Positions 4,237 through 42,509 of a DNA stretch of 42,577 bases are shown piece after piece; within the stretch, counting starts at the first letter, position 1; each line of letters begins with the position of its first letter. The notes below the pieces were generated by a model. The model saw nothing but the letters and a program-made list of their open reading frames with translations, was not told where the DNA came from and did no database searches. A program made the translations under genes and the position numbers. The stretch is from a virus. The stretch lies in IMG/VR virus record IMGVR_UViG_3300048592_000139, positions 1 through 42,577 of that record, one strand, 5' to 3'.

Positions 4237-4814
4237 CAATCCAAGAGATACCGATTGCCAAGCTGAAAGGGAACCCCAAAAACCCGCGCGTGTTGCGCGA
4301 TGCCAAGTTCGCCAAGCTAAAAAAGTCGATCGAGGATTTTCCCGACATGCTGAACTACCGGACCATCGTGGCCGTCACCGACGGCGACAAGTACATGGTG
4401 CTGGGCGGGAACATGCGGCTACGTGCAATGCAGGAGCTGGGCCTCAAGACCGCTCCCGTCATGCTTGCCGACCACTGGACTGAAGAGCAGCGCCGCGAAT
4501 TCATCATCAAGGATAACGTGGGGTTCGGTGAGTGGGATTGGGATTCGATAGAAGATGAATGGAATGAGGCTCTTCTTGAGGAATGGGGGATGGAAGACAA
4601 AAGGCCATCAGCATTAAAAAAGACCTATGATATGCTGAATGGGAAATTCGATGGGGCAAAAATCGAATATCCTGTCACGATCATTTTGACCCCCGCAGAG
4701 TTCAGGGAGTGGAAGAAAATGAAAAAAGAAATCGGATCACTCGAGGATAATGATGCGTTCTGGAAGATCACAAAGGGGTACGTTGAAGAACTGAAAAAAG
4801 AAGCTGAAAGATGA
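4233..4814 (+). CDS. ParB/sulfiredoxin-fold phage protein
   Basis: A 193-residue protein. The N-terminal 90 residues show the ParB N-domain pattern: IPIAKLKGNPKNPR, then the nucleotide-binding-type motif GGNMRLRAMQELG, followed by an acidic Trp-rich helix region. There is no HTH or dimer domain of chromosomal ParB and no ParA nearby, so it is not a partition protein. Stand-alone ParB-fold proteins occur in phage DNA-modification and terminase-adjacent neighbourhoods. It overlaps both neighbours by 4 bases, suggesting a shared pathway with the glycosyltransferase and radical-SAM enzyme. Confidence 0.75.
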   Translation: MTIQEIPIAKLKGNPKNPRVLRDAKFAKLKKSIEDFPDMLNYRTIVAVTDGDKYMVLGGNMRLRAMQELGLKTAPVMLADHWTEEQRREFIIKDNVGFGEWDWDSIEDEWNEALLEEWGMEDKRPSALKKTYDMLNGKFDGAKIEYPVTIILTPAEFREWKKMKKEIGSLEDNDAFWKITKGYVEELKKEAER

Positions 4815-6058
4815 TAGTGAATTTCATTGGCGAGTTCATGTTCCATCCGGCTCCTCTCGAAATGAGCGGCAACACCTGCACACATGGGTGTGCTTACTGT
4901 TTTGCGAACATCCGAAAAGAAAGCCGATACTCGAAGATCAAATCGGCTGTGACTCAGCTCAAGAAAAACAAGATCACGACGTACGTGGACCATCTAATAC
5001 ATCAGGGGTATCCCATTTGCTTGAGCAATTCGACAGACCCATTCTCTGCGACAGATTACATCAACACCATAACACTTGCGCAGTACCTAAGGGATCGACC
5101 GAACGGCATCTTCTGGCAAACCAAGGGGGGGCACGGCGTGGATCAGGTGTTGGAGATCCTGAAGGACAAGAAGGAGCAGGTGTGGTACGTGACCCTTACC
5201 ACCATCAACCCAGAAATCGCGAAGCGTGTAGAAAGCAACGCCCCGACCCCGAAGGAGAGGATGGATTTGATGGTGAGATTGAAATCACTTGGATACACCG
5301 TCGTGTTAGCGCTGAACCCATTGGTGGAGGAGTGGATGCCGCGCGAAGATCTTGACCAAGTGATCAAGTTCGCAAAGGAGAACGGCATCAACCACATCGT
5401 GGTTCAGCAATTGCACTTGAACAAAAAAGAGATTGCGTCCTTTAAGCCGAACCGGCGATCGAAGTTCACAGACGAGGAACTTGCAAGCACTCTTGAGCAC
5501 AAGGCAGCCCTCAAATATGCGCGGGACGCGGTGGATCACATTGAGGCGTGCGGACTGATGCCTATGAAGATAGGTATGCCTAAGAAATCCAAGTTCTTCG
5601 ACGAGATCCGCTCTTCGCTTGGCAAGATTTCGCCAAACCACTTCGACGTGATCAACCACTGCTTTGACAACAATGCACCGGACGGGATGGTGTTGACCTA
5701 TGACACCTTCCATGACCTGATGACGCGGAACGCGCCAGACATGTTCAATTGCAAGTTCAATGGGTTCAAGTCCTATATCTTCAAAGCGAACGCTCACGAG
5801 TGGATCGAAAACAGTGCTGTTAAGAAAATAGAAACACTCAGCGACGTGTTGAAGATCGTCTGGAACTCCAAGAGGATCAAGCAGAGCTTGCAGCATAATG
5901 CGCTATTCCAACGGCGCACCGATCACAATGGTAATGATGTCCTCGACGGCGATGGGAACATCACGTTGTTCTTTGATGGCGTGGTGAGGAGGAACAAGAG
6001 CGCTAGGGTTCTTCGGATGCTGGAGACCGATATGACCTACGATAAGGCTACCTTGTAG
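4811..6058 (+). CDS. Radical SAM enzyme, SplB-like
   Basis: A 415-residue protein with the iron-sulfur motif CxxxCxxC at C23, C27 and C30 (NTCTHGCAYCFA), followed by an alpha/beta barrel-like region with conserved SNSTDPF and FWQTKGG segments. The arrangement recalls the spore photoproduct lyase-like branch of radical SAM proteins, which act on nucleobases through a 5'-deoxyadenosyl radical. The true substrate is unknown. Overlap with the ParB-fold gene and the upstream glycosyltransferase suggests a DNA base-modification pathway. The gene ends just before a small leader region and a terminator. Confidence 0.8.
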   Translation: MIVNFIGEFMFHPAPLEMSGNTCTHGCAYCFANIRKESRYSKIKSAVTQLKKNKITTYVDHLIHQGYPICLSNSTDPFSATDYINTITLAQYLRDRPNGIFWQTKGGHGVDQVLEILKDKKEQVWYVTLTTINPEIAKRVESNAPTPKERMDLMVRLKSLGYTVVLALNPLVEEWMPREDLDQVIKFAKENGINHIVVQQLHLNKKEIASFKPNRRSKFTDEELASTLEHKAALKYARDAVDHIEACGLMPMKIGMPKKSKFFDEIRSSLGKISPNHFDVINHCFDNNAPDGMVLTYDTFHDLMTRNAPDMFNCKFNGFKSYIFKANAHEWIENSAVKKIETLSDVLKIVWNSKRIKQSLQHNALFQRRTDHNGNDVLDGDGNITLFFDGVVRRNKSARVLRMLETDMTYDKATL

Positions 6059-6093: not shown

Positions 6094-6138
6094 ATGGAGA
6101 ACCATCAGGTAGAATGGGGAGGCGATTGGGAGGGCTGA
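6094..6138 (+). CDS. Possible 14-residue leader peptide
   Basis: ATG after an A-rich context (AAACCAAAACAAA) encodes MENHQVEWGGDWEG and then a stop, twelve bases before a strong hairpin. This could be a leader peptide or simply the remains of a gene; translation is plausible from context only. Confidence 0.3.
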   Translation: MENHQVEWGGDWEG

Positions 6139-6149
6139 CCCCGGTCAAC

Positions 6150-6184
6150 TGATAGGGAGGGAATGGCCCTCCCTATCAACTTTT
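6150..6184 (+). terminator. Rho-independent terminator
   Basis: A perfect 12-bp stem, TGATAGGGAGGG paired with CCCTCCCTATCA, has a 5-nt loop and is followed by ACTTTT. It separates the modification module from the packaging genes. Confidence 0.8.
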
Positions 6185-6201
6185 ACAGAAACAAAACAGA
6201 A

Positions 6202-6522
6202 ATGGCGTTTAAGAAAGGCGAGACCCCCAAGGGAGCAAAGCCGTTCAAAAAGGGGGTGTCAGGCAATCCAAACGGAAGGCCGCGAAAGCTGCCTCACCTT
6301 GACACCTTGCTTGCTGATGTGTTAGGGTCCGAAAAGGACGGGATTACCATTTCAGAAACCATCCTTAGAAGGCTGTCCATTATGGCAATCAATGGCAATA
6401 TCCGAGCTGCTGAAGTACTGCTGGACCGGGCGCACGGGAAGGCCAAGCAGGCTATAGACATGGATGTCAAAGGCGACCAGAACATCACCATCACCCGTGA
6501 GGTCATAACCCGCAAGGTTTGA
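6202..6522 (+). CDS. Terminase small subunit candidate (DUF5681-like)
   Basis: A 106-residue basic protein. The N-terminal KKGVSGNPNGRPRK box is the signature of the DUF5681 family, proteins often encoded directly before a terminase large subunit and thought to act as the small, DNA-recognising subunit. The start at 6202 follows an A-rich leader; an ATG at 6163 lies in the loop of the terminator hairpin and is unlikely. The stop overlaps the TTG start of the large subunit. Confidence 0.7.
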   Translation: MAFKKGETPKGAKPFKKGVSGNPNGRPRKLPHLDTLLADVLGSEKDGITISETILRRLSIMAINGNIRAAEVLLDRAHGKAKQAIDMDVKGDQNITITREVITRKV

Positions 6523-16791: not shown

Positions 16792-17382
16792 ATGGCAGAA
16801 TCCCTTTTTCTCGACTGCGGGGACAGTGAGTGGCTAGACCCCTCATCCAACCTCTGCGTAAACTACTCGTCCGGCATGGACGCGGCCTACTTCTTCAAGC
16901 GAGGAGTGACGATCGCGGACTACACCGATGAGACCAACGGCGTGTTCGTCATTAACGTCTCCAAGCTCCAAGCCCTGCTCGACAGCGGGGACGCGAAGCT
17001 GGTGAAGGGCATCCGCATGGGCATTGACCTACCCTCCGTCATTACGGGGGATAGCTTCATTGGCTGCGTTGCCGAAGCGCCGATCAACTACACCCGTACA
17101 GCCACCCTCAAGGATCCGAAGGTGGATGCGAACCAAGTTAAATTCTACGATTCCGTAGGGTTCTTCCTTGGCGGAATGTTGATCCATGAATGTGCCGCTG
17201 GCCGTGTTTCGGCCATTGACGCAGTGATCACCTTGTCCGGTGGGCGCACCTCTCCGGAAGGGGACGAGCTTCAGCGGTTTGAAAAGACCGCTACGTGGAA
17301 GAGCGTGGAGGAGCCGAAGATCCTGCCGAATGCAGCGATCTGGAACCTTACGCCTGCTGCCGGTAGCGGTAGCGGTAGCTAA
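16792..17382 (+). CDS. Major tail (tube) protein candidate
   Basis: A 196-residue compact beta-rich protein starting MAESLFLDCGDSEWLDPSSN with a Gly-Ser tail made by a repeated GGTAGC codon pair. Size, isolated transcription unit and a strong hairpin right after the stop fit an abundant structural protein such as the tail tube. It lies between the tail and head blocks. No sequence-family proof. Confidence 0.5.
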   Translation: MAESLFLDCGDSEWLDPSSNLCVNYSSGMDAAYFFKRGVTIADYTDETNGVFVINVSKLQALLDSGDAKLVKGIRMGIDLPSVITGDSFIGCVAEAPINYTRTATLKDPKVDANQVKFYDSVGFFLGGMLIHECAAGRVSAIDAVITLSGGRTSPEGDELQRFEKTATWKSVEEPKILPNAAIWNLTPAAGSGSGS

Positions 17383-17390
17383 ATGTAAAC

Positions 17391-17417
17391 GCCCCCACGT
17401 GTAAAAAGCGTGGGGGC
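17391..17417 (+). terminator. Strong hairpin, likely terminator
   Basis: GCCCCCACG (17391-17399) pairs perfectly with CGTGGGGGC (17409-17417) around a 9-nt A-rich loop. No T-run follows, so termination may be partial or the hairpin may stabilise the upstream mRNA. Confidence 0.6.
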
Positions 17418-17431
17418 ATAACACCCAAAAC

Positions 17432-17512
17432 ATGTGTTGCGGAAGACCATCAAAGCCAGCGAGTAGACCGGCAAGCCGCCCCGTCCAGCGGCCTGTAAAG
17501 CCTAAGAAGTAA
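17432..17512 (+). CDS. Tiny basic Cys-Cys peptide
   Basis: A 26-residue ORF, MCCGRPSKPASRPASRPVQR followed by PVKPKK, after an A-rich start context (ACACCCAAAAC) and ending directly before the portal ATG. The MCCG start, the repeated ASRP units and strong basic charge look non-random. It could be a minor virion or DNA-binding peptide, or a leader peptide for the portal gene. Confidence 0.45.
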   Translation: MCCGRPSKPASRPASRPVQRPVKPKK

Positions 17513-20185: not shown

Positions 20186-20193
20186 TATATTTG
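20186..20193 (+). promoter_or_regulatory. Promoter -7 element TATATTTG
   Basis: TATATTTGCCC is the same motif as in the tRNA/ncRNA region and lies 16 nt before the ATG at 20210. It would drive the head-scaffold-capsid genes. Confidence 0.6.
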
Positions 20194-21436: not shown

Positions 21437-22552
21437 ATGGCTACGCCAAATGGCTATAGCAGCGTTCTCGCTGCTTGCCCAAACATTCAGGTTGACCTCG
21501 ACGAGGCATGGACCAACGGAATGTTCCCCACGGAGCACGTTCCGGAGGCCGAATTTCTTACCTCCGCGACCAACAATCGCGGGATCAAAAAGATGATCGT
21601 TCCGGGCAACGGAAAGATCCGAACCGTTGACGTTACCTACACCCGCCGCAGGCTGGAGGAGAACGTTAAGACCAATCAGGCCAACCCGAACTGTACGGCT
21701 TCGTACAGCTACGGGAATGAGACGACCAGCTATACGATCGACCCATCGGTGAACGTGCAGGACAGCACGATCATCAACCTGAACGATGATCGCCTTTCAT
21801 GCGTTGATAGTTTCAAGAACGCCATGCGCGATTCGGTGGACGTTGTGGACCGAAAGGTCGCAAGCATCATCGCTACCCAAAGCGTTGCTTTGGCCGGTGG
21901 GTGGGGTGATGAGGTGCCCAGCACTACCAGCACCATCACCAACGGCGTGGTGAAGAACGGCACGTTCTACCAGCTCGCGTTCAACGCCACCTCCGGAGCA
22001 CCGATGCCCGGCGTATGGCCTGACTTGCGTAATGCGTTGGACGATTCCGGGTTCACCGATGAGGTGGCTCTGTTCGGCGGAAACACCTTGCGCCGGTACA
22101 TGCAGTTCCTCGCCGCTGGATGCTGCACCAACGATGGCATCGACCTGAGCGAAATCATGGCCCAGTACGGCTATGTGGCCGCGAAGGACAAGCGCGTTGC
22201 TAATGCCTTGGGGAACCAAGATAGCTACCTCGCGATCGCCCCCGGCGCTTTGCAGGTGCTCAACTACAGCCGCGCAGAAGGCAAACCCATGTGGGGCCAG
22301 TTGCTCGGTGGCGGTGCAGGAAGCAACTACTTCATGACCACCGTAGCAAGCCCCCGTTTCGGGCTGACCTACGACGTGAACGCGAAGGACGATTGCGGAA
22401 CGCTTCACCTGACCGTTACGGCGACGATCAAAACCATCGGACTGCCCACAGATTTGTACGTGGCACCCGTGGCCAGCGGATCCGGCGCAACGGGTGGAGA
22501 CGAATACTACGGCGTGACCGGCGTAGTGAAAGGGAAGTTGATCCTTTCGTAA
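21437..22552 (+). CDS. Major capsid protein
   Basis: A 371-residue protein in the standard slot after portal, head morphogenesis and scaffold. Mixed alpha/beta composition, DVVDRKVASIIATQS helix and late GNQDSYLAIAPGALQVLNYS segment are typical of HK97-fold capsid proteins of Bacteroidota phages, but similarity is by pattern and position. Isolated by a structured leader and a following terminator, consistent with high expression. N-terminal processing is unclear. Confidence 0.75.
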   Translation: MATPNGYSSVLAACPNIQVDLDEAWTNGMFPTEHVPEAEFLTSATNNRGIKKMIVPGNGKIRTVDVTYTRRRLEENVKTNQANPNCTASYSYGNETTSYTIDPSVNVQDSTIINLNDDRLSCVDSFKNAMRDSVDVVDRKVASIIATQSVALAGGWGDEVPSTTSTITNGVVKNGTFYQLAFNATSGAPMPGVWPDLRNALDDSGFTDEVALFGGNTLRRYMQFLAAGCCTNDGIDLSEIMAQYGYVAAKDKRVANALGNQDSYLAIAPGALQVLNYSRAEGKPMWGQLLGGGAGSNYFMTTVASPRFGLTYDVNAKDDCGTLHLTVTATIKTIGLPTDLYVAPVASGSGATGGDEYYGVTGVVKGKLILS

Positions 22553-27706: not shown

Positions 27707-28173
27707 TGACCAAAGCAGAGCGGGTACTGGCCTTCGCATCCATCGAAGTAGGGACTGTTGAAAGTCCGGCGAACAGCAACCGGACCAAGTACGGCAAGTG
27801 GTTCGGGCTGGATGGCGTTCCATGGTGCGGCATCTTCGTCTCTTGGGTATTCGACAAGGCGGGGGCGAACCTTGGAAACATCGGTTTCTCCAATGGCTTC
27901 GCGGGATGCCAGACGGCGGTAGCGCACTTCCGTAGAACCAAGGAGGTGACCACGAAACCGCAGCCGGGGGACATTGTGTTCTTTGACTGGAACGGCGATG
28001 CGCGCTACGACCACACCGGCCTATTCGTGCGCCGCTTGAGCGCCACGCAGTTCGAGACCATCGAAGGCAATACCTCCCCCACCAACCAAAGCAACGGCGG
28101 CATGGTGATGCGCCGCAAACGCAGCTTCGGCAAAGGCGTGCTATTCGTCCACCCGAAAGTGCTTGACATATGA
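27706..28173 (+). CDS. CHAP-domain endolysin
   Basis: A 155-residue single-domain protein of the NlpC/P60-CHAP superfamily. The catalytic Cys is C41 (VPWCGIFVSW), the His is H103 (RYDHTGLF), followed by an EGNTS segment for the third position. There is no signal peptide, so release depends on a holin or membrane lesion. It cleaves peptidoglycan (amidase or endopeptidase). It is the most certain lysis gene and is followed by a spanin. Confidence 0.85.
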   Translation: MTKAERVLAFASIEVGTVESPANSNRTKYGKWFGLDGVPWCGIFVSWVFDKAGANLGNIGFSNGFAGCQTAVAHFRRTKEVTTKPQPGDIVFFDWNGDARYDHTGLFVRRLSATQFETIEGNTSPTNQSNGGMVMRRKRSFGKGVLFVHPKVLDI

Positions 28174-28760
28174 GGCGCTGCACGACCATACTATTCTTGC
28201 TCGTGGCGCTGTTGGTGGCATCTTGCTCTTCGCCCCGTAAGGCGCAGCAGCGGGATGAGCGCAAGGCGGCGAAGTACTTGGCCAAGGCGATCATGCTGGA
28301 CCCGTCGATACTGAAGACAGGCGAAAGCACGACCTATACCATTCCCGCCGACAGCGCGACATTCACGGCCAAGCCTTCCGAGGTGAACGTGGATAGCCTG
28401 CTTGCCGCCTGCGCGGAACTGAACGCCGCGTTGTCGGTGCGTCCCCCTGAAGAGGTGCCGGTGTACAGGGACATCACCAAGGTGATCGACGGGATCAAAC
28501 GAAAGGCTTGCGCGTGGGAGGGCTTCACGGAGCACTTTGGCAAGACGCTCACCATCACCGTGAGCAATGTGGACGGCACGCCGGTGTTGATGGTAGACCA
28601 GAGCAAAGAGGTTGTGCAGGTGCCTTGCCCGCCGAGGGTGGAGCGGCCCCAGGTCGCGCCCAAGTGCGGCGTGGCAGAATGGTATCGGACGTTCACATGG
28701 TTGATCCTTGGCCTTGCTATGCTGCTGATCGCCTACTTCGCCTATAAGATCCTCCGATGA
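28170..28760 (+). CDS. Single-molecule spanin (u-spanin) candidate
   Basis: A 196-residue protein with an N-terminal lipoprotein signal ending in lipobox VASC (C19) and a C-terminal membrane span (about residues 173-193, WLILGLAMLLIAYFAYKILR). An outer-membrane lipid anchor plus an inner-membrane span in one chain is the topology of u-spanins such as T1 gp11, which fuse the two membranes at the last step of lysis. Its position right after the endolysin supports this. The periplasmic part is long enough to span the envelope. Confidence 0.7.
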   Translation: MRRCTTILFLLVALLVASCSSPRKAQQRDERKAAKYLAKAIMLDPSILKTGESTTYTIPADSATFTAKPSEVNVDSLLAACAELNAALSVRPPEEVPVYRDITKVIDGIKRKACAWEGFTEHFGKTLTITVSNVDGTPVLMVDQSKEVVQVPCPPRVERPQVAPKCGVAEWYRTFTWLILGLAMLLIAYFAYKILR

Positions 28761-29583: not shown

Positions 29584-29973
29584 ATGAAAGCCCTGCTATT
29601 CCTACTCCTGACCACCCCCGCCCTGGCACAGAGCGATGTGGTGCGGTGGGGATGGACCAACCCACCACCACCGATGAACGTTGTGAACGCTGGCTTTGAA
29701 TTGGACAAGGATGCCAACAGCTCAAGCCTCGCCGCGTGGTCCGCCATTGCAGGCGCGGTGATGGGCACGGCGTTCTATTTGGACGGCGATCGTGATGCCG
29801 CCTATGGTGTCTGGACGATGGGATTTGTGGCACACTTCGCGTTCACTATCAACGCCACAAAGCACCGGCACCGGGCAGCGCAACACTGGCAGCAGGGATG
29901 GTCAAAGGACCGGCTGTATGAGAGTGAGCCGGACAGCGTTGGTAGCGCACCACCGAAGAGAGTTGAGAGATAG
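29584..29973 (+). CDS. Secreted or membrane-associated hypothetical protein
   Basis: A 129-residue protein with a short signal peptide (MKALLFLLLTTPALA, cleavage likely after ALA) and a central hydrophobic stretch (WSAIAGAVMGTAFYL, WTMGFVAHFAFTI), so it is exported and perhaps membrane-embedded. Such proteins are frequent in Bacteroidota phages and prophages. Function unknown. Confidence 0.55.
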   Translation: MKALLFLLLTTPALAQSDVVRWGWTNPPPPMNVVNAGFELDKDANSSSLAAWSAIAGAVMGTAFYLDGDRDAAYGVWTMGFVAHFAFTINATKHRHRAAQHWQQGWSKDRLYESEPDSVGSAPPKRVER

Positions 29974-30049
29974 CCGCCGTGCTTTCGTAGGGGTTTGTCG
30001 CGGCGGTTGGAAGCCCTTGCAGAAATGTGAGGGCTTTCGCTTACATTCG
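29974..30049 (+). promoter_or_regulatory. Terminator-promoter unit 1
   Basis: CCGCC (29974-29978) pairs with GGCGG (30002-30006); a second hairpin pairs AAGCCCT (30011-30017) with AGGGCTT (30030-30036). Then TACATTCG (30042-30049) followed by CCCCG is a promoter element. The unit closely resembles the one at 30112-30148, so it is a duplicated regulatory module. Confidence 0.6.
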
Positions 30050-30053
30050 CCCC

Positions 30054-30140
30054 GTGTCCCGTTCCACATTTGAGCGGGTGGTGGAAGCGGACTGGAATAG
30101 GTCGCGCCCCGGAAGTCCTTGCAGAAGTGCAGGGACTTCT
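30054..30140 (+). ncRNA. Short candidate RNA 1
   Basis: About 85 nt between a TACATTCG promoter and a terminator hairpin (GAAGTCC 30112-30118 with GGACTTC 30133-30139, then TT). It contains an inner stem TTCCAC (30062-30067) with GTGGAA (30081-30086). No ORF has a good start context. Probably a small RNA transcript. Confidence 0.45.
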
Positions 30141-30148
30141 TATATTAG
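30141..30148 (+). promoter_or_regulatory. Promoter element TATATTAG
   Basis: TATATTAGCCCCG directly follows the terminator of the previous short RNA. Confidence 0.55.
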
Positions 30149-30152
30149 CCCC

Positions 30153-30409
30153 GCCAAAGCATTGAGACGCATTGAGCGCATCGTAGACCCCGGAGCGATA
30201 CCGGGCAGGTCCACCATCATTTCGTTGGCGTCAACGAAATGATACCTCACATGGGCCTGAATTGATTCGATACGGTGGGGCAAGGTGTGAGGAGCAGAGG
30301 CACAAGTCAAACGGCAACACGCCCGTAATTCAGATGTGGAGCGACCTTCGGGCCGCAGCCTAATTCGGCGGAACCCTCGGACGATAGTTCGGGGGTTCCT
30401 GCTTTTTGT
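30153..30409 (+). ncRNA. Candidate structured RNA 2 (about 250 nt)
   Basis: It begins after a TATATTAG promoter and ends in an intrinsic terminator (GGAACCC 30370-30376 with GGGTTCC 30393-30399, inner CGGAC/GTTCG stem, then TGCTTTTTG). Inside are a 12-bp perfect hairpin (30216-30227 with 30232-30243), CCCGG/CCGGG (30189-30205) and CCTCACA/TGTGAGG (30245-30292). ORFs crossing it lack start context. I do not recognise a known RNA family. Confidence 0.6.
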
Positions 30410-30410
30410 G

Positions 30411-30418
30411 TATATTGC
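30411..30418 (+). promoter_or_regulatory. Promoter of the tRNA cluster
   Basis: TATATTGC followed by GCCCC lies 18 nt before tRNA-Cys and right after the terminator of the previous transcript. Confidence 0.55.
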
Positions 30419-30436
30419 GCCCCTAATGAAGCACAA

Positions 30437-30507
30437 AGCCCATTGTCCGAGCGGTCAGGTACCGCTCCGCAAAAGCGGTCAGGCCGGTTCGACTCCGGCA
30501 TGGGCTT
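30437..30507 (+). tRNA. tRNA-Cys (GCA)
   Basis: Acceptor AGCCCAT pairs with ATGGGCT, discriminator U73 as expected for Cys, anticodon stem CCGCT/AGCGG with loop CCGCAAA (anticodon GCA), T arm GCCGG-TTCGACT-CCGGC. The base before the anticodon is C where U33 is almost universal, an odd feature. CCA is not encoded. Confidence 0.85.
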
Positions 30508-30543
30508 CATTTCCTTTTCGATATTGGCGAGGATAAATCCTTC

Positions 30544-30613
30544 GGGATGTTCGCGCGGTGCTGGCCGGGCCTGTAAAACCCTAGCCTTGGTGGTTCGACT
30601 CCATCACATCCCA
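30544..30613 (+). tRNA. tRNA-like gene, anticodon GTA (Tyr) most likely
   Basis: Acceptor GGGATGT pairs with ACATCCC and the T arm GGTGG-TTCGACT-CCATC is sound. The anticodon loop CTGTAAA would read Tyr codons, but the stem is weak (a C-A pair closes the loop), the D arm is poorly formed, and the long variable arm of bacterial tRNA-Tyr is missing. It is either a degenerate tRNA or one with unusual structure. Confidence 0.5.
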
Positions 30614-30618
30614 CATAC

Positions 30619-30689
30619 ACACGGGACAGTCATGGCGACGGGTGGGCCTCCAAAACCTTACCGCGTGGGTTCGATTCCTACCCCGTGTG
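30619..30689 (+). tRNA. tRNA-Trp (CCA)
   Basis: Acceptor ACACGGG pairs with CCCGTGT, G73 is correct for Trp, T arm GTGGG-TTCGATT-CCTAC is like known tRNA-Trp, and the loop CTCCAAA gives anticodon CCA. The D loop is very short and the anticodon stem is weak with a closing C-A pair, as in the preceding gene. Confidence 0.7.
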
Positions 30690-30693
30690 CTTT

Positions 30694-30765
30694 GCGACAA
30701 TAGCTCAGACGGTAGAGCGGCGGCCTGAAAAGTCGTGGTCCGTGGTTCGATTCCACGTTGTCGCA
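30694..30765 (+). tRNA. tRNA-Phe (GAA)
   Basis: Acceptor GCGACAA pairs with TTGTCGC, A73, canonical D arm (TAGCTCAGACGGTAGAGC), anticodon stem GCGGC/GTCGT with loop CTGAAAA (anticodon GAA), T arm CGTGG-TTCGATT-CCACG. Canonical in all arms. Confidence 0.9.
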
Positions 30766-30774
30766 CATTTGTGT

Positions 30775-30782
30775 TATATTTG
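30775..30782 (+). promoter_or_regulatory. Promoter element TATATTTG
   Basis: TATATTTGCCCCG directly downstream of tRNA-Phe; starts the candidate structured RNA A. Confidence 0.6.
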
Positions 30783-30787
30783 CCCCG

Positions 30788-31183
30788 AAGGGACCGCGTG
30801 AACGGTCGAACAATCTTACACCAGCGCCGAAAGGCACCGGAAAGGCAAGGGGTTCAGTTGTTCACGCAACTGGCCCCTTCGCTTTTTGAGGGAGTTCTAT
30901 CGGCACTCTCCCGCGCTGGTGTAAGAAAGGCGCACAAAGTACCGGAGTAAGGAATAACCATGGAAAGCCCTGCGCCGTTCTACCCGCCAACGACAGGCAC
31001 CGCATGCGTCGAGAGACGTTTGGACCCCATGGTTCCCATCGGGGATTGGGCCGTTCCGATACTCATCTGAAGAGCTACACCAAGGCTCGGATTGCGTCCC
31101 CAATACATGCGGGGAAGGGCGGGGTTGTGGAATACACTGAGGCACTTTTATACTTTCGCCCCCAAAAGTTAAAAAGGGGCGAA
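30788..31183 (+). ncRNA. Candidate structured RNA A (about 400 nt)
   Basis: It begins after the TATATTTG at 30775. Stems include GACCG/CGGTC (30792-30807) and a perfect 14-bp long-range stem TCTTACACCAGCGC (30814-30827) with its exact inverse at 30913-30926. That stem encloses hairpins AAGGGG..CAGTTG/CAACTG..CCCCTT (30847-30879) and GGGAG/CTCCC (30890-30912). Further stems are AACCATGG/CCATGGTT (30956-30963 with 31027-31034), a GNRA-capped CGTC-GAGA-GACG (31007-31018) and ATCGG/CCGAT (31038-31060). A hairpin TTCGCCCC/GGGGCGAA (31155-31183) may end it. No convincing ORF. No family recognised. Confidence 0.65.
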
Positions 31184-31199
31184 GGCATTTCAACTGTGC

Positions 31200-31207
31200 T
31201 ATATTTG
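31200..31207 (+). promoter_or_regulatory. Promoter element TATATTTG of RNA B
   Basis: TATATTTGCCCCGG, the same extended sequence as at 30775. Predicted transcription start near 31212. Confidence 0.6.
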
Positions 31208-31211
31208 CCCC

Positions 31212-31806
31212 GGTTCTTTGTGTACTGAGTAGGTGGGCGGAGAAATCCGTACGCTAGGCCATTCGTCATCGGGTTGATCGCCGGTTGAAAAAGGGAATGG
31301 CTCAGGGTGATAGCCACGAAGTGTAGGCGTGTTGGCCCCACCTACTGAGTATACCAAGATGTTCTTTTCAGGATGTGATCGTGGGAAAGTGGCCGTCGTT
31401 CGACGCCGGTATCGCGCCTCAACTCTACGGGCCATCCGTTCTGATGGTAAAGCCTCCGGCCCCACGAACACATCCAGTACTGTAAGAGATTGAGGTAACG
31501 AGTTCAGTCGTGCATCGTCAGCGGTGAAGCGCCAGAGCCTCAATAACATTCACGAGGAAAGGAAAAACGGCGACGTTAAAGGCGGGGAGCTTGACCGCCC
31601 AAGAAGTCAGTAGTTCGGGTTTTATGTCGTGTCCAAGTCCTGCTCCTGCCTCGTGAACCCCTTCCCCATCGCCACAGGGCTAATCCCCCTGCCGATGTAA
31701 AACAGCCGGAGAGAAGCCGGTTCCGTTAAATGGCCTGAAGTCCGTGTCAATGGTCAGCCTCGAAATGGGTGCGGAAAGGCAAAGGGAAAGCCTCGATCTA
31801 ACGGGG
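31212..31806 (+). ncRNA. Candidate large ornate RNA B (about 600 nt), GOLLD/ROOL-like in setting
   Basis: A promoter is followed by some 600 nt without a credible ORF but with dense complementary pairs: 31223-31237 with 31337-31351 (14 of 15), 31371-31385 with 31461-31475 (14 of 15), TTCACGAGG 31549-31557 with 31649-31657 (perfect), ATTGAGG 31489-31495 with 31538-31544, CATCG 31667-31671 with 31693-31697, and CCGTTA 31723-31728 with 31799-31804. GNRA-type tetraloops cap CGGA-GAAA-TCCG (31238-31249) and AACG-GCGA-CGTT (31566-31577). Length, phage setting and adjacency to tRNAs match the GOLLD and ROOL classes of large RNAs, which assemble into cage-like oligomers. Class membership cannot be decided by eye; it may be a new family. 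It ends at the right end of a TnpB element. Confidence 0.7.
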
Positions 31807-33045
31807 TAATGTCCCATTAACGGATAATGGCGACTTGACGCTTCATAGACCGACGTAACCGCCGCGTCTCCACGTCCTCTGCGGCGATGACCTCGCCTGA
31901 TTTTGTTCCGATCAAGTTCTGTGGGCGAAGCCCGAACATCTTGATGTTGCGCGCCGCGAGAAGATCGCGATCATGCACTTCTCCGCACGAAGGACATTTC
32001 CATGTCCTATCCTTCAGTGTCAACTCCTTGTTCACTACTCCGCAAGTACACATGCGCGAGGAAGGCTCGAAACGCCCGATGCGGATCAAATTCTTCCCAT
32101 TCCATTCACACTTGTACTCCAACTGCCTGAAGAACTCGCTCCACGAAGCACTGCTGATATGCTTGGCAAGGCAATGGTTCTTCAGCATCCCTGCGACATT
32201 CAAGTCCTCTATCACAATACTGTCGTGGTTCTTGACCAGTTGTGAAGTGAGCTTGTGCAGGAAATCTTTCCGTTGACAGGCGATACGGTAATGATGTTTT
32301 GCGACAGCAAGCCTTGATTTCTTTCGCCTGTTGCTCCCTTTCTGCTTCTTGGATAGGCGACGCTGCAATACAGCCAACCGCTGTTCGGCTTTCTGGTAAT
32401 GCTGCGGAGCGGGTATGCGCTCTCCGTTGCTTAGGACAGCAAAGTCTTTCAGGCCAACGTCAATAGCTACGGCTGTGTTCTCTTTGACGGCGGCCTTAGC
32501 TGGAATGGGATCGCCAGTATCAACCAAGACGCTGATGAAGTACTTCCCGGCGGTTGTTCGCGTAACCGTGACCGTACCCATCTTTCCGTCAAATGGTCTG
32601 CTTATGAAAGCCCTGACCCATCCAATCTTAGGCAGCTTCACTTTTCCGGCCTCAAAATCCACCACCACATAGCCTGTGAATTGTATGCGTTGCTTGTCGT
32701 ACTTGCTCCGAAATTTCGGGAATCCATTTTTCTCACGGAAGAAGCGAGTGAAGGCACTATCCATATTGCGGATGGCTTGCTGAAGACAGACATTTGGCGT
32801 CTCATATAGCCATGTCTTTTCCGGGTCTTTCTTCAGCGGCGTCAGCATCTTGCAAAGATCATATGCCGTGTATCGCTTCTTCTCTGTCTCGTAAGCCTTG
32901 ACCCGCTCCGCCAATGACCAGTTGTAGATGTACCGCGCAGACCCCATCGCCCGTGCGAACCATTGTCGCTGGGTGGCGCTGGGGTCAAGTTGGTACTTGT
33001 AGGCGCGAAGCATTGGAGCAAAGTAAAGCAATAGTTTTTTATTTT
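31807..33045 (-). mobile_element. Second IS605-type element carrying tnpB only
   Basis: On the minus strand, a hairpin CCATTA/TAATGG overlaps the tnpB stop codon, the usual right-end arrangement, and the element appears to end at 31807 directly against RNA B. The left end lies between the tnpB start and the upstream gene, but I cannot fix it. No tnpA is present. Left boundary coordinates in the window (31807) are better supported than 33045. Confidence 0.6.
31817..33013 (-). CDS. tnpB: TnpB RNA-guided endonuclease
   Basis: A 398-residue protein starting MLRAYKYQLDPSATQ. RuvC residues D185 (AIDVG), E269 (IEDL) and D350 (HDRD) are all present. The zinc ribbon is altered: the first knuckle is CTCG (CxC) where CxxC is usual, while the second, CPSCG, is normal; one residue appears deleted. 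Guided DNA cleavage may therefore be impaired or the metal site tolerant. A TACTTTG element lies just before the ATG on the minus strand. The guide RNA would be read antisense to the end of RNA B. Confidence 0.88.
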   Translation of the reverse strand: MLRAYKYQLDPSATQRQWFARAMGSARYIYNWSLAERVKAYETEKKRYTAYDLCKMLTPLKKDPEKTWLYETPNVCLQQAIRNMDSAFTRFFREKNGFPKFRSKYDKQRIQFTGYVVVDFEAGKVKLPKIGWVRAFISRPFDGKMGTVTVTRTTAGKYFISVLVDTGDPIPAKAAVKENTAVAIDVGLKDFAVLSNGERIPAPQHYQKAEQRLAVLQRRLSKKQKGSNRRKKSRLAVAKHHYRIACQRKDFLHKLTSQLVKNHDSIVIEDLNVAGMLKNHCLAKHISSASWSEFFRQLEYKCEWNGKNLIRIGRFEPSSRMCTCGVVNKELTLKDRTWKCPSCGEVHDRDLLAARNIKMFGLRPQNLIGTKSGEVIAAEDVETRRLRRSMKRQVAIIR

Positions 33046-33257
33046 GCAAGACAACGGTCGGGGCTTTTTGCTTCCCTCACGTTGGTCGAATGCTTGCCCT
33101 TCGGGTTGTGCTTGTGCGGATCGCAGAACATGCACGAGCAAGGCTTGCCAGTGGTGCGGTAAGAGTTGAACTTCCCCTCGCAAGCCTTCAGGCCGAGGTT
33201 TTTCAGGCGGCGGCGAAAGTGCCGCATCTTCATAAGGTGGCGTTGCTGCTTGTCCAT
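33039..33257 (-). CDS. Small CxCxxC zinc-type protein
   Basis: A 72-residue basic protein starting MDKQQRHLMKMRHFRRRLKN with a central TTGKPCSCMFCDPHKHNPKG motif, similar in layout to small Cys-rich proteins widespread in bacteria and phages (CSCxMCGNPR type). Promoter TACCTTCG on the minus strand (33263-33270) ends 5 nt before the ATG. It is the only non-TnpB gene on the minus strand and is transcribed away from the early operon. The TnpB element lies just after its stop and may have altered its end. Confidence 0.65.
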   Translation of the reverse strand: MDKQQRHLMKMRHFRRRLKNLGLKACEGKFNSYRTTGKPCSCMFCDPHKHNPKGKHSTNVREAKSPDRCLAK

Positions 33258-33262
33258 CCGTG

Positions 33263-33270
33263 CGAAGGTA
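33263..33270 (-). promoter_or_regulatory. Minus-strand promoter element TACCTTCG
   Basis: Read on the minus strand, TACCTTCG lies 5 nt before the ATG of the CxCxxC protein and next to the palindrome at 33276. Confidence 0.5.
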
Positions 33271-33275
33271 GTCCT

Positions 33276-33296
33276 TATTTAGAATGGTTCTAAATA
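33276..33296. promoter_or_regulatory. Palindromic operator candidate between divergent promoters
   Basis: Perfect 9-bp arms TATTTAGAA and TTCTAAATA around 3 nt. It lies just upstream of a minus-strand -7 element and a plus-strand element TATATTTTCG (33302-33311), overlapping where both -33 regions should be. A dimeric regulator bound here could control both directions. Confidence 0.6.
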
Positions 33297-33301
33297 TCGG
33301 G

Positions 33302-33311
33302 TATATTTTCG
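33302..33311 (+). promoter_or_regulatory. Upstream early promoter element
   Basis: TATATTTTCG beside the palindrome could be a first, repressible early promoter. Confidence 0.4.
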
Positions 33312-33318
33312 CGGTGCC

Positions 33319-33348
33319 TTGTTGGTGTCAAAATTATGTCTACATTTG
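33319..33348 (+). promoter_or_regulatory. Early operon promoter
   Basis: TTG (33319-33321), 19 nt, then TACATTTG (33341-33348): a textbook Bacteroidota promoter. The leader that follows closely matches that of the 2457 gene. Confidence 0.7.
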
Positions 33349-33379
33349 TCCTGTCGTCAAACAACAAACACACCGCACA

Positions 33380-33622
33380 ATGAACAAGCAAGACATCATC
33401 GCACTGGTAGAAAAGTACCGCACTACCTACTGCAAAGGAACGCAGATGACCAACGACGAAGGTGTTGCCATCTTCGAGAAGTGGGCAGCCAAAGGCAAGA
33501 TGGCCCCCATCCAGTGGGTGGAGAAGGAGATGAAGAAGAGCATCGCCAAAATGAGCATGTCCGAATACAACGAGGGAACGCAGCACGGAGCACATCGCGC
33601 AAACCTTGGAAGCAAGTGGTAA
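33380..33622 (+). CDS. Early protein 1, unknown
   Basis: An 80-residue basic helical protein starting MNKQDIIALVEKYRTTYCKG, first gene of the long early operon. The start follows an A-rich leader. First early genes often reprogramme the host, but no motif supports a specific role. Confidence 0.6.
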   Translation: MNKQDIIALVEKYRTTYCKGTQMTNDEGVAIFEKWAAKGKMAPIQWVEKEMKKSIAKMSMSEYNEGTQHGAHRANLGSKW

Positions 33623-33648
33623 TCATCAACCCTAACACCTCAAACAAA

Positions 33649-33888
33649 ATGAGCTTCCGCAGCCCCAAGAACCGTTTCCGCGTCGAACTGAACTACTCAC
33701 GGCCCATTGAGGGCATAGGTTCGGCATCCTCATTCACCTGCAACGAAATGGACGAGGACCACCCCATGCTTCAACACCACACCGAACAGGCCGGGCGCAA
33801 TGGCGTAGCCCTCTCGGTGAAGTGGCTGGAAAACAAAGCCACCTATCCTGCTTTCGACTGGCGGGAAGTAAAGAATTACGTCGCATGA
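33649..33888 (+). CDS. Early protein 2, unknown
   Basis: A 79-residue protein starting MSFRSPKNRFRVELNYSRPI. Start after CAAACAAA context. Its stop overlaps the next ATG. No family recognised. Confidence 0.55.
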   Translation: MSFRSPKNRFRVELNYSRPIEGIGSASSFTCNEMDEDHPMLQHHTEQAGRNGVALSVKWLENKATYPAFDWREVKNYVA

Positions 33889-41197: not shown

Positions 41198-41452
41198 ATG
41201 AAACCAAAAACAGCCCGCGAAGCCCTAACGTCTGCCCTTAGATCGCGCCGGATGACCTTGACGGTAGGTAGATACCACAGACCCGACGAAACGACCTTAA
41301 ACGCAGCAATGGGTAGATTACAGACATTCCTTGACTGCTACCCGGTGGCAAGTGATGAAAAGGTACGTGAGTGGTGCCACCTGAACCGGCTTGACGTTCT
41401 GGCGGTGATACCTTCACGGTGGAAGGAAGTAAGACAACAGCTACTCGGATAA
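41198..41452 (+). CDS. Hypothetical protein
   Basis: An 84-residue basic protein starting MKPKTAREALTSALRSRRMT, two bases after the helicase stop. No family recognised. Confidence 0.5.
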   Translation: MKPKTAREALTSALRSRRMTLTVGRYHRPDETTLNAAMGRLQTFLDCYPVASDEKVREWCHLNRLDVLAVIPSRWKEVRQQLLG

Positions 41453-41463
41453 AACACAACAAA

Positions 41464-41904
41464 ATGAGAGGATTTTTTGCAGTAGGCATAGTCCAAGGTA
41501 AAACGGTGGAGAACCTTGGCACACTTTGGAGGACGGCTAACCTTTTCGGCGCGGCATTCATCTTCACAGTGGGGCGGCGCTATAAAAGGCAATGCAGTGA
41601 TACCATGCAAACGCCAAGGCACGTGCCCTTGTTCCATTTCGACACGGTGGATGACTTGATTAAACACCTTCCGAACAGTTGCCCGCTTGTTGGGGTGGAG
41701 TTAAACGAAGATGCTACTCCCTGCCATCTATTGAAACACCCGGAACGGGCATGCTATCTTTTGGGTGCTGAGGATAACGGCCTATCAAAAGCGGACCAAG
41801 CCAAATGCCACGAGATCGTGGTGCTTCCCGGCGATTACAGCCTTAACGTTGCGGTGGCAGGAAGCCTTGTAATTTACGATCGGTGGAGACAGGTACAGCC
41901 ATGA
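41464..41904 (+). CDS. SpoU/TrmH-family RNA 2'-O-methyltransferase
   Basis: A 146-residue SPOUT-class enzyme. Motif 1 includes NLGTLWRTANLFGAAF, motif 2 is LGAEDNGLS, motif 3 is YSLNVAVAGSLVIYDRW, together forming the SAM-binding trefoil knot. The family methylates tRNA or rRNA riboses. There is no extra RNA-binding domain, as in TrmL-type proteins. In a phage that also brings tRNAs it could modify its own or host tRNAs. Start after ACACAACAAA. Confidence 0.9.
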   Translation: MRGFFAVGIVQGKTVENLGTLWRTANLFGAAFIFTVGRRYKRQCSDTMQTPRHVPLFHFDTVDDLIKHLPNSCPLVGVELNEDATPCHLLKHPERACYLLGAEDNGLSKADQAKCHEIVVLPGDYSLNVAVAGSLVIYDRWRQVQP

Positions 41905-42222: not shown

Positions 42223-42435
42223 ATGGCAAAGGATCAAGAGCAACAGGTGAAAGAGGCATTCGAGCAAGGGTTCGCTTGCGCGTGTGCCACGATGTGGGAA
42301 TTGCACAGGGATGATACTGCGGTGATGCACGTTCTAACGACGTGCTTTCCAACCATCGAGAGCCTAAAGGCCGCGAAGGTTGATCCGTATGATAAGCGTA
42401 GGCTAATGGCCTTGTATCGGCGTTGGCTTTCTTGA
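42223..42435 (+). CDS. Cassette C ORF, unknown function
   Basis: A 70-residue helical protein starting MAKDQEQQVKEAFEQGFACA. It lies alone between GTTGGCCCCC (42158) and its exact inverse GGGGGCCAAC (42438). Leader and stop-boundary joint (TGAATGGGGGCC) match cassette A. No family recognised. Confidence 0.6.
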   Translation: MAKDQEQQVKEAFEQGFACACATMWELHRDDTAVMHVLTTCFPTIESLKAAKVDPYDKRRLMALYRRWLS

Positions 42436-42437
42436 AT

Positions 42438-42509
42438 GGGGGCCAACGGTTCGGGCAGTTGCCGCCGTGCGGTGCAATTTGCATGGAGGCAACTGACCTG
42501 TTCTGCGCC
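42438..42509 (+). repeat. attC-like site 4
   Basis: From GGGGGCCAAC (42438-42447) to GTTCTGCGCC (42500-42509). Arms CAGTTGCC (42456-42463) and GGCAACTG (42488-42495) form a perfect 8-bp stem. It joins cassette C to the cassette whose left boundary is repeated at position 49. Confidence 0.6.

Follow-up and report, generated by a model that had tools for sequence, protein, structure and literature searches.

An RNA island at a gene-module boundary

The DNA analyzed here (the window) comprises the 42,577 bases of an IMG/VR virus record, in which genes for tail, terminase and portal proteins precede the 30–33 kb interval, and genes for ERF, YqaJ and DnaB follow it. Between both gene blocks lies an RNA island made up of a permuted tmRNA, tRNA-Cys/Tyr/Trp/Phe and two further segments that we call RNA1 and RNA2. 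The island's position is the boundary between late and early gene modules, and it holds several separately promoted RNA units:

30161–30363, + strand: permuted (two-piece type) tmRNA (RF04321, 53.5 bits, above the cut-off; tag ORF)
30437–30766, + strand: tRNA-Cys(GCA), tRNA-Tyr(GTA), tRNA-Trp(CCA) and tRNA-Phe(GAA) (ARAGORN)
30775–31010, + strand: RNA1, a second promoter copy plus a strongly folded non-coding segment (14-bp helix 30815/30912)
31200–31207, + strand: Bacteroidota-type −7 promoter box TATATTTG (motif enrichment), with a putative transcription start near 31212
31212–31801, + strand: RNA2, candidate gene body of a ~600-nt non-coding RNA (six-frame test, no protein family, promoter, split terminator)

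The candidate tag of the tmRNA ends ...SDLRAAA* (sequence ...SNGNTPVIQMWSDLRAAA*), and the gene is followed by its own terminator-like hairpin and T-run at 30370. Two-piece tmRNAs are on record for cyanobacteria, alpha- and betaproteobacteria, and phages that are mostly aquatic (PMC9004378), which makes the host lineage of a phage with Bacteroidota-type promoters unexpected. Among the tRNAs, Cys and Phe were called by ARAGORN at default settings, and the degenerate tRNA-Tyr and tRNA-Trp were added only at a relaxed threshold. The codons read by all four start with U (A36–A37 type)—a set that does not look random. A further translation-linked gene, for a phage-encoded SpoU-type rRNA/tRNA methylase, lies at 41419–41904.

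Large non-coding RNAs (ncRNAs) near tRNAs have been described in phages (PMC7567579, PMC12286853), and the initial annotation of this DNA placed RNA2 in such a location. The four tRNAs do lie nearby, with the promoter box 434 nt downstream of them, but tRNA-Phe is separated from RNA2 by RNA1 (30785–31010), a better-supported structured segment (z = −4.0, i.e., about −4; 0 of 200 shuffles as stable) on which the annotation was silent. The 14-bp helix of RNA1 (p < 0.003) encloses a terminator-like hairpin with a T-run (30846–30889), and RNA1 had no credible Rfam match down to E ≤ 10. Other strong folds in the window (z −4 to −7) occur at 6101–6300, 42301–42500 and 17301–17500; within the first, 6150–6185 is an evident terminator that precedes the genes for the terminase.

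Promoter, non-coding character and fold of RNA2

The promoter proposed for RNA2, TATATTTGCCC at 31200, proved to be a real promoter-like box that recurs before RNA genes of this phage. We assigned the box by the consensus TAnnTTTG. Allowing one mismatch, the window contains five copies of TAWATTTGCCC where 0.95 would be expected, a count reached in 0 of 100 shuffles, and all five copies are on the + strand. Further copies of the 31200 box lie at 20186, 30775 (likewise downstream of tRNAs) and 35549, with a variant at 30141, and boxes of the TAnnTTnG type precede several units of the RNA island. The closest terminase relative of this phage (G001) carries the same promoter box as the window; at its position 21512 (L094:1512), TATATTTGCCCC stands before ~200 nt of apparently ORF-free DNA, upstream of the terminase genes.

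RNA2 is non-coding. The claim that it holds no credible ORF was borne out by codon log-odds (trained on 13 phage genes, with seven further genes held out as a test), which were negative in all six frames of 31212–31786 (−0.18 to −0.31 bits/codon) and resembled those of the tmRNA/tRNA block (−0.18 to −0.26 bits/codon). The true frame scored positive in six of the seven held-out genes (e.g., +0.33 in 4811–6058 and 28170–28760; +0.025 in the weakest); the exception, 33319–33888, had its best score in another frame. RNA2 matched no Pfam or PHROG family, even with stops read through, and we rejected the reading of it as a decayed protein gene, as the read-through frames carried no such signal.

The predicted fold comprises three parts:

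31215–31359, + strand: domain I, with a closing helix of 4 + 7 + 10 bp and three arms (a four-way junction); GAAA tetraloop at 31242–31245
31371–31475, + strand: domain II, with a closing helix of 14 bp around one A-A mismatch and a poorly determined interior
31487–31786, + strand: 3' half, with a helix at 31549–31557/31649–31657 and a GCGA loop at 31570–31573; folding at chance level

An "ornate" fold had been claimed for the whole RNA, and folding beyond chance holds for the 5' 270 nt only. Against a reference of window-wide 146-nt segments (mean z = −0.32, sd 1.21), domain I (31215–31360) reaches z = −4.94, none of 200 shuffles folds as well, and its helices have probabilities of 0.67–1.00, with lower values confined to the end of the long arm. 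The domain II segment (31361–31486) gives z = −2.55, with pair probabilities of 0.99–1.00 in the closing helix and 0.2–0.7 in the interior; 31213–31480 together give z = −3.9 (matched by 1 of 300 shuffles). The 3' half, by contrast, has z = −0.52 (range about −0.5 to −0.8) and is equaled by 90 of 300 shuffles; the whole RNA2 region has a z of about −2.

Individual elements of the annotated fold fared differently. The two helices of about 15 bp are present, i.e., 17 bp around one mismatch in domain I (31220–31226 + 31228–31237 with 31337–31346 + 31348–31354) and 14 bp, again around one mismatch, in domain II (31371–31377 + 31379–31385 with 31461–31467 + 31469–31475), and both carry weight; compared with shuffles, only the top-scoring helix that contains a single mismatch stands out (p = 0.007). 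GNRA loops are likewise present, as described (GAAA and GCGA). The "perfect 9-bp stem" exists (31549/31649) but carries no weight, because uninterrupted helices of 9–11 bp are expected in shuffled sequence (p about 0.49).

This uneven profile raises the possibility that the first 145–270 nt alone are a functional structured RNA, e.g., a mid-sized regulatory or leader RNA, and that what follows is either spacer without structure or belongs to another, unrelated transcript. The drop in z from −4.9 (31215–31360) to −0.5 (31487–31786) and a fold profile that falls along the window after 31400 speak for it. However, the + strand of 31212–31786 contains no terminator-like site, the only one found for the unit being at 31787, and large ncRNAs may include weakly scoring domains. 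On balance, we regard so short an RNA as a somewhat doubtful, though by no means negligible, possibility.

The TnpB element and a probable split terminator

RNA2 today abuts a transposon, with the junction at 31805/31806:

31806–33059, − strand: TnpB element (IS200/IS605 type); right end 31806, left end estimated near 33059–33066
31817–33013, − strand: tnpB2, RNA-guided nuclease TnpB (Pfam OrfB_IS605 and Cas12f1-like_TNB; NCBIfam guided_TnpB)
31787–31801, + strand: left terminator arm AAAGCCTCG (31787–31795) and loop ATCTAA (31796–31801)
33059–33069, + strand: right terminator arm CGGGGCTTT (33059–33067) and T-run TTTTT (33065–33069)

The start of tnpB2 was read as the ATG at 33013. Aligned to relatives, the right end of the element reads ...GAAGCGTCAAGT-hairpin-GACATTAC| and falls on base 31806. 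Archaeal TnpB relatives end ...GAAGC-hairpin-TAGTTCAC|, and phage relatives (L159–L162) end GAAGCGTCAA...AATCAC|; the match is to conserved right ends both of these phage relatives (54–57% identity), from which the left end was also estimated, and of others (50–51%). The 3' end of 31806 originally given for the RNA is therefore the edge of a mobile element, where the relatives' aligned right ends place the border, and not a natural RNA end. A 5-bp direct repeat, CGGGG, is present at both element ends (31802–31806 and 33059–33063). A second, canonical TnpB element in the window (tnpB1; 992–2200, 2100–2250) has a typical left-end hairpin, of a kind that tnpB2 lacks, and a right end ...GGGTGGGTAGTTCAC.

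Halves of a terminator flank the element. Joined as an empty site, the flanks give AAAGCCTCG-ATCTAA-CGGGGCTTTTTGC, a predicted intrinsic terminator of about −14 kcal/mol with a 9-bp stem, a 6-nt loop and a T5 tail. Among 85,094 positions on both strands of the record, the best four arms that complete a hairpin with 31782–31801 and carry a T tail are at 33056–33059, close to the left element end expected from relatives (about 33060–33070). We read the arms at 31787 and 33059 as an RNA2 terminator that was probably split by insertion of the TnpB element, which strengthens the claim that RNA2 is a discrete unit; RNA2 is older than the insertion. One caveat is that a 72-aa ORF of the opposite strand (33039–33257) encloses the right arm, and its lysine codons might account for the A/T run. 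The 5' arm also overlaps a predicted closing helix (31487–31496/31790–31799) at 31790–31795. Because these bases are common to both, arm and helix are mutually exclusive, and given this competition the helix may be spurious or may act as an anti-terminator.

Since the insertion lies in the hairpin, the current RNA2 would lack a terminator, and its transcription should continue into tnpB2 in the antisense direction. Such read-through, together with the position of RNA2 at the element's right end, would fit a role within the TnpB system, either regulating tnpB2 as a long antisense RNA or forming part of its guide RNA. The omega-RNA guide of tnpB2 would moreover be copied from, and antisense to, 31790–31805. 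We consider this assignment highly improbable: the guide of such elements is whatever sequence flanks them, neither the flanks nor the records of close TnpB relatives (L159–L162 and others) contain such an RNA, and the minus strand of 31486–31810 folds at chance level (z = 0.1).

Homolog searches and comparison with known large phage RNAs

The initial annotation proposed that RNA2 belongs, or is a counterpart, to the GOLLD and ROOL classes and is possibly a new family, and membership gained no support. Neither the ROOL model (RF03087; Rfam cut-off 99.1 bits) nor the GOLLD model (RF02032, its conserved 3' region included) matched RNA2 at E ≤ 10, in searches run without a known ROOL or GOLLD phage as positive control and in which RF03087 control genomes also gave 0 matches. 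A cmscan of 31190–31830 against 4,227 Rfam families yielded no credible match even at E ≤ 10. Over the whole window, 29900–33400 and two sub-regions searched down to E ≤ 10, only tRNA and tmRNA were credible; two microRNA matches were dismissed as noise, as was a group II intron match at 31703 (11 bits, E 6.8). RNA2 could be a GOLLD or ROOL RNA too divergent for the Rfam models, and its size, phage context, tRNA neighborhood and GNRA loops fit the class description (PMC12286853). Yet both models and cmscan gave no match at E ≤ 10, and the conserved 3' region of GOLLD should be the easiest part to detect, whereas the 3' half of RNA2 is its least structured part; we give this reading very little credence.

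Searches for homologs were similarly negative across about 90 whole viral records and several larger collections. By blastn, 31150–31850 had no match in a phage collection, and no RNA2 homolog appeared in plasmid records, in 26 terminase relatives or in 40 records of TnpB relatives. The method finds conserved RNA, as a further blastn against phages matched the tRNAs (and these alone). Back-translated word seeds, which by estimate catch ~90% identity and mostly miss <80%, found no homolog in IMG/VR (18 seeds) or GTDB genomes (6 seeds), and a single-sequence covariance model of domain I found none in 50 terminase relatives, in the flanks of 42 TnpB relatives or in 40 of their records. Two candidates were set aside: an 18-nt match in one genome (G026) sits in a protein gene, and six IMG/VR contigs with the tmRNA pattern, all without a tmRNA, were chance hits. 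G001, the nearest relative by terminase (54%), has its structural module and its type of promoter in common with the window phage, and no RNA cluster was seen at its corresponding junction.

A separate ORF-poor region of about 700–850 nt beside tRNAs was noted in Lactobacillus phage phi jlb1 (L239:2000–2850) and relatives (L240–L243), with z to −5. It is 71–93% conserved in L. gasseri/johnsonii phages, Rfam is credible there for tRNAs only, several T-arm-like pieces suggest degenerate tRNAs, and double changes occur in 18 of 163 predicted pairs.

The absence of RNA2 from all relatives searched, the toleration of a TnpB insertion and the chance-level frequency of individual perfect stems are what one would expect if the region were non-functional intergenic DNA, its promoter-like motif and stems coincidental or a relic of a decayed RNA or gene. 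Three separate lines of evidence—the fold of domain I (z = −4.9), the enriched promoter and the matching terminator arms—make this unlikely.

An untranslated stretch with a promoter motif at its 5' end, a well-folded 5' half and terminator halves at both ends of the adjoining element is probably best explained as a discrete ~600-nt phage gene for an untranslated RNA, its 3' end disrupted by insertion. The evidence supports the initial reading as a promoter-driven, partly well-folded RNA gene (~600 nt) within the RNA island of this Bacteroidota-type phage, but not GOLLD/ROOL membership (no match at E ≤ 10). Against the RNA-gene reading stand the absence of a homolog in any search, a 3' half at shuffle level and the whole-region z of about −2. 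From these features we infer that RNA2 would be transcribed rightward from the promoter at 31200 to the intrinsic terminator, which it would have used before the insertion, in a unit extending from 31212 to about 31806 and originally including the first bases after 33064. Its 5' half would form a pair of domains, each closed by a helix and the first of them a four-way junction, and the TnpB element would have entered the terminator hairpin later. Judging from the setting only, RNA2 would most likely act as a structural RNA that is produced in the course of infection, is stable and works in trans, on or beside the translation machinery that the island supplies. A translation-linked action of this kind would match, by analogy, what has been proposed for GOLLD and ROOL RNAs, neither of which has a known function. 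Both assemble into RNA-only cages, and RNA2 may form oligomers or cages.

More tentatively, RNA2 might found a class of its own, one of large self-folding RNAs in Bacteroidota phages that are functionally parallel to GOLLD/ROOL; its island would combine a permuted tmRNA with tRNAs restricted to UNN codons, and RNA2 itself would be in the process of being broken by TnpB. If so, the occurrence in a further phage group of an RNA that is unrelated but matches in size and setting would show that large phage RNAs were invented repeatedly, with translation-linked islands as their likely shared context. The natural insertion in the terminator would also permit a test of how dispensable such an RNA is; GOLLD was reported to be dispensable in one prophage (PMC7567579).

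Comparison with described systems bears on how RNA2 is best placed. ROOL is, like RNA2, phage-encoded, about 570–600 nt long, near tRNAs and complex in fold, but RNA2 does not match its model at E ≤ 10 and is not clearly structured in its 3' half. GOLLD is likewise a large phage ncRNA beside tRNA islands; it often exceeds 800 nt and has a universally conserved 3' region (PMC12286853), and RNA2, at about 600 nt and near a tRNA island, does not match its model at E ≤ 10. The element adjoining RNA2 is of the IS200/IS605 kind that encodes TnpB omega-RNA/reRNA; an omega-RNA, however, has the orientation of tnpB and sits at the element's right end, directly 5' to its guide, and RNA2 runs in the other direction and lies beyond that end (31806). 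Phage ICP1 makes an abundant ~800-nt ORF-less transcript and phage K has tRNA-adjacent long ncRNAs (PMC7567579, PMC9241854). These were defined as transcripts by RNA-seq, whereas RNA2 is known from its sequence, and ICP1, unlike the phage studied here, has no tRNAs; like RNA2, they are large, fall outside named Rfam classes and are of unknown function. RNA2 is thus at most analogous to GOLLD and ROOL, with membership not demonstrated, and shares with large phage ncRNAs in general the form of a long ORF-free unit with a predicted promoter and terminator.
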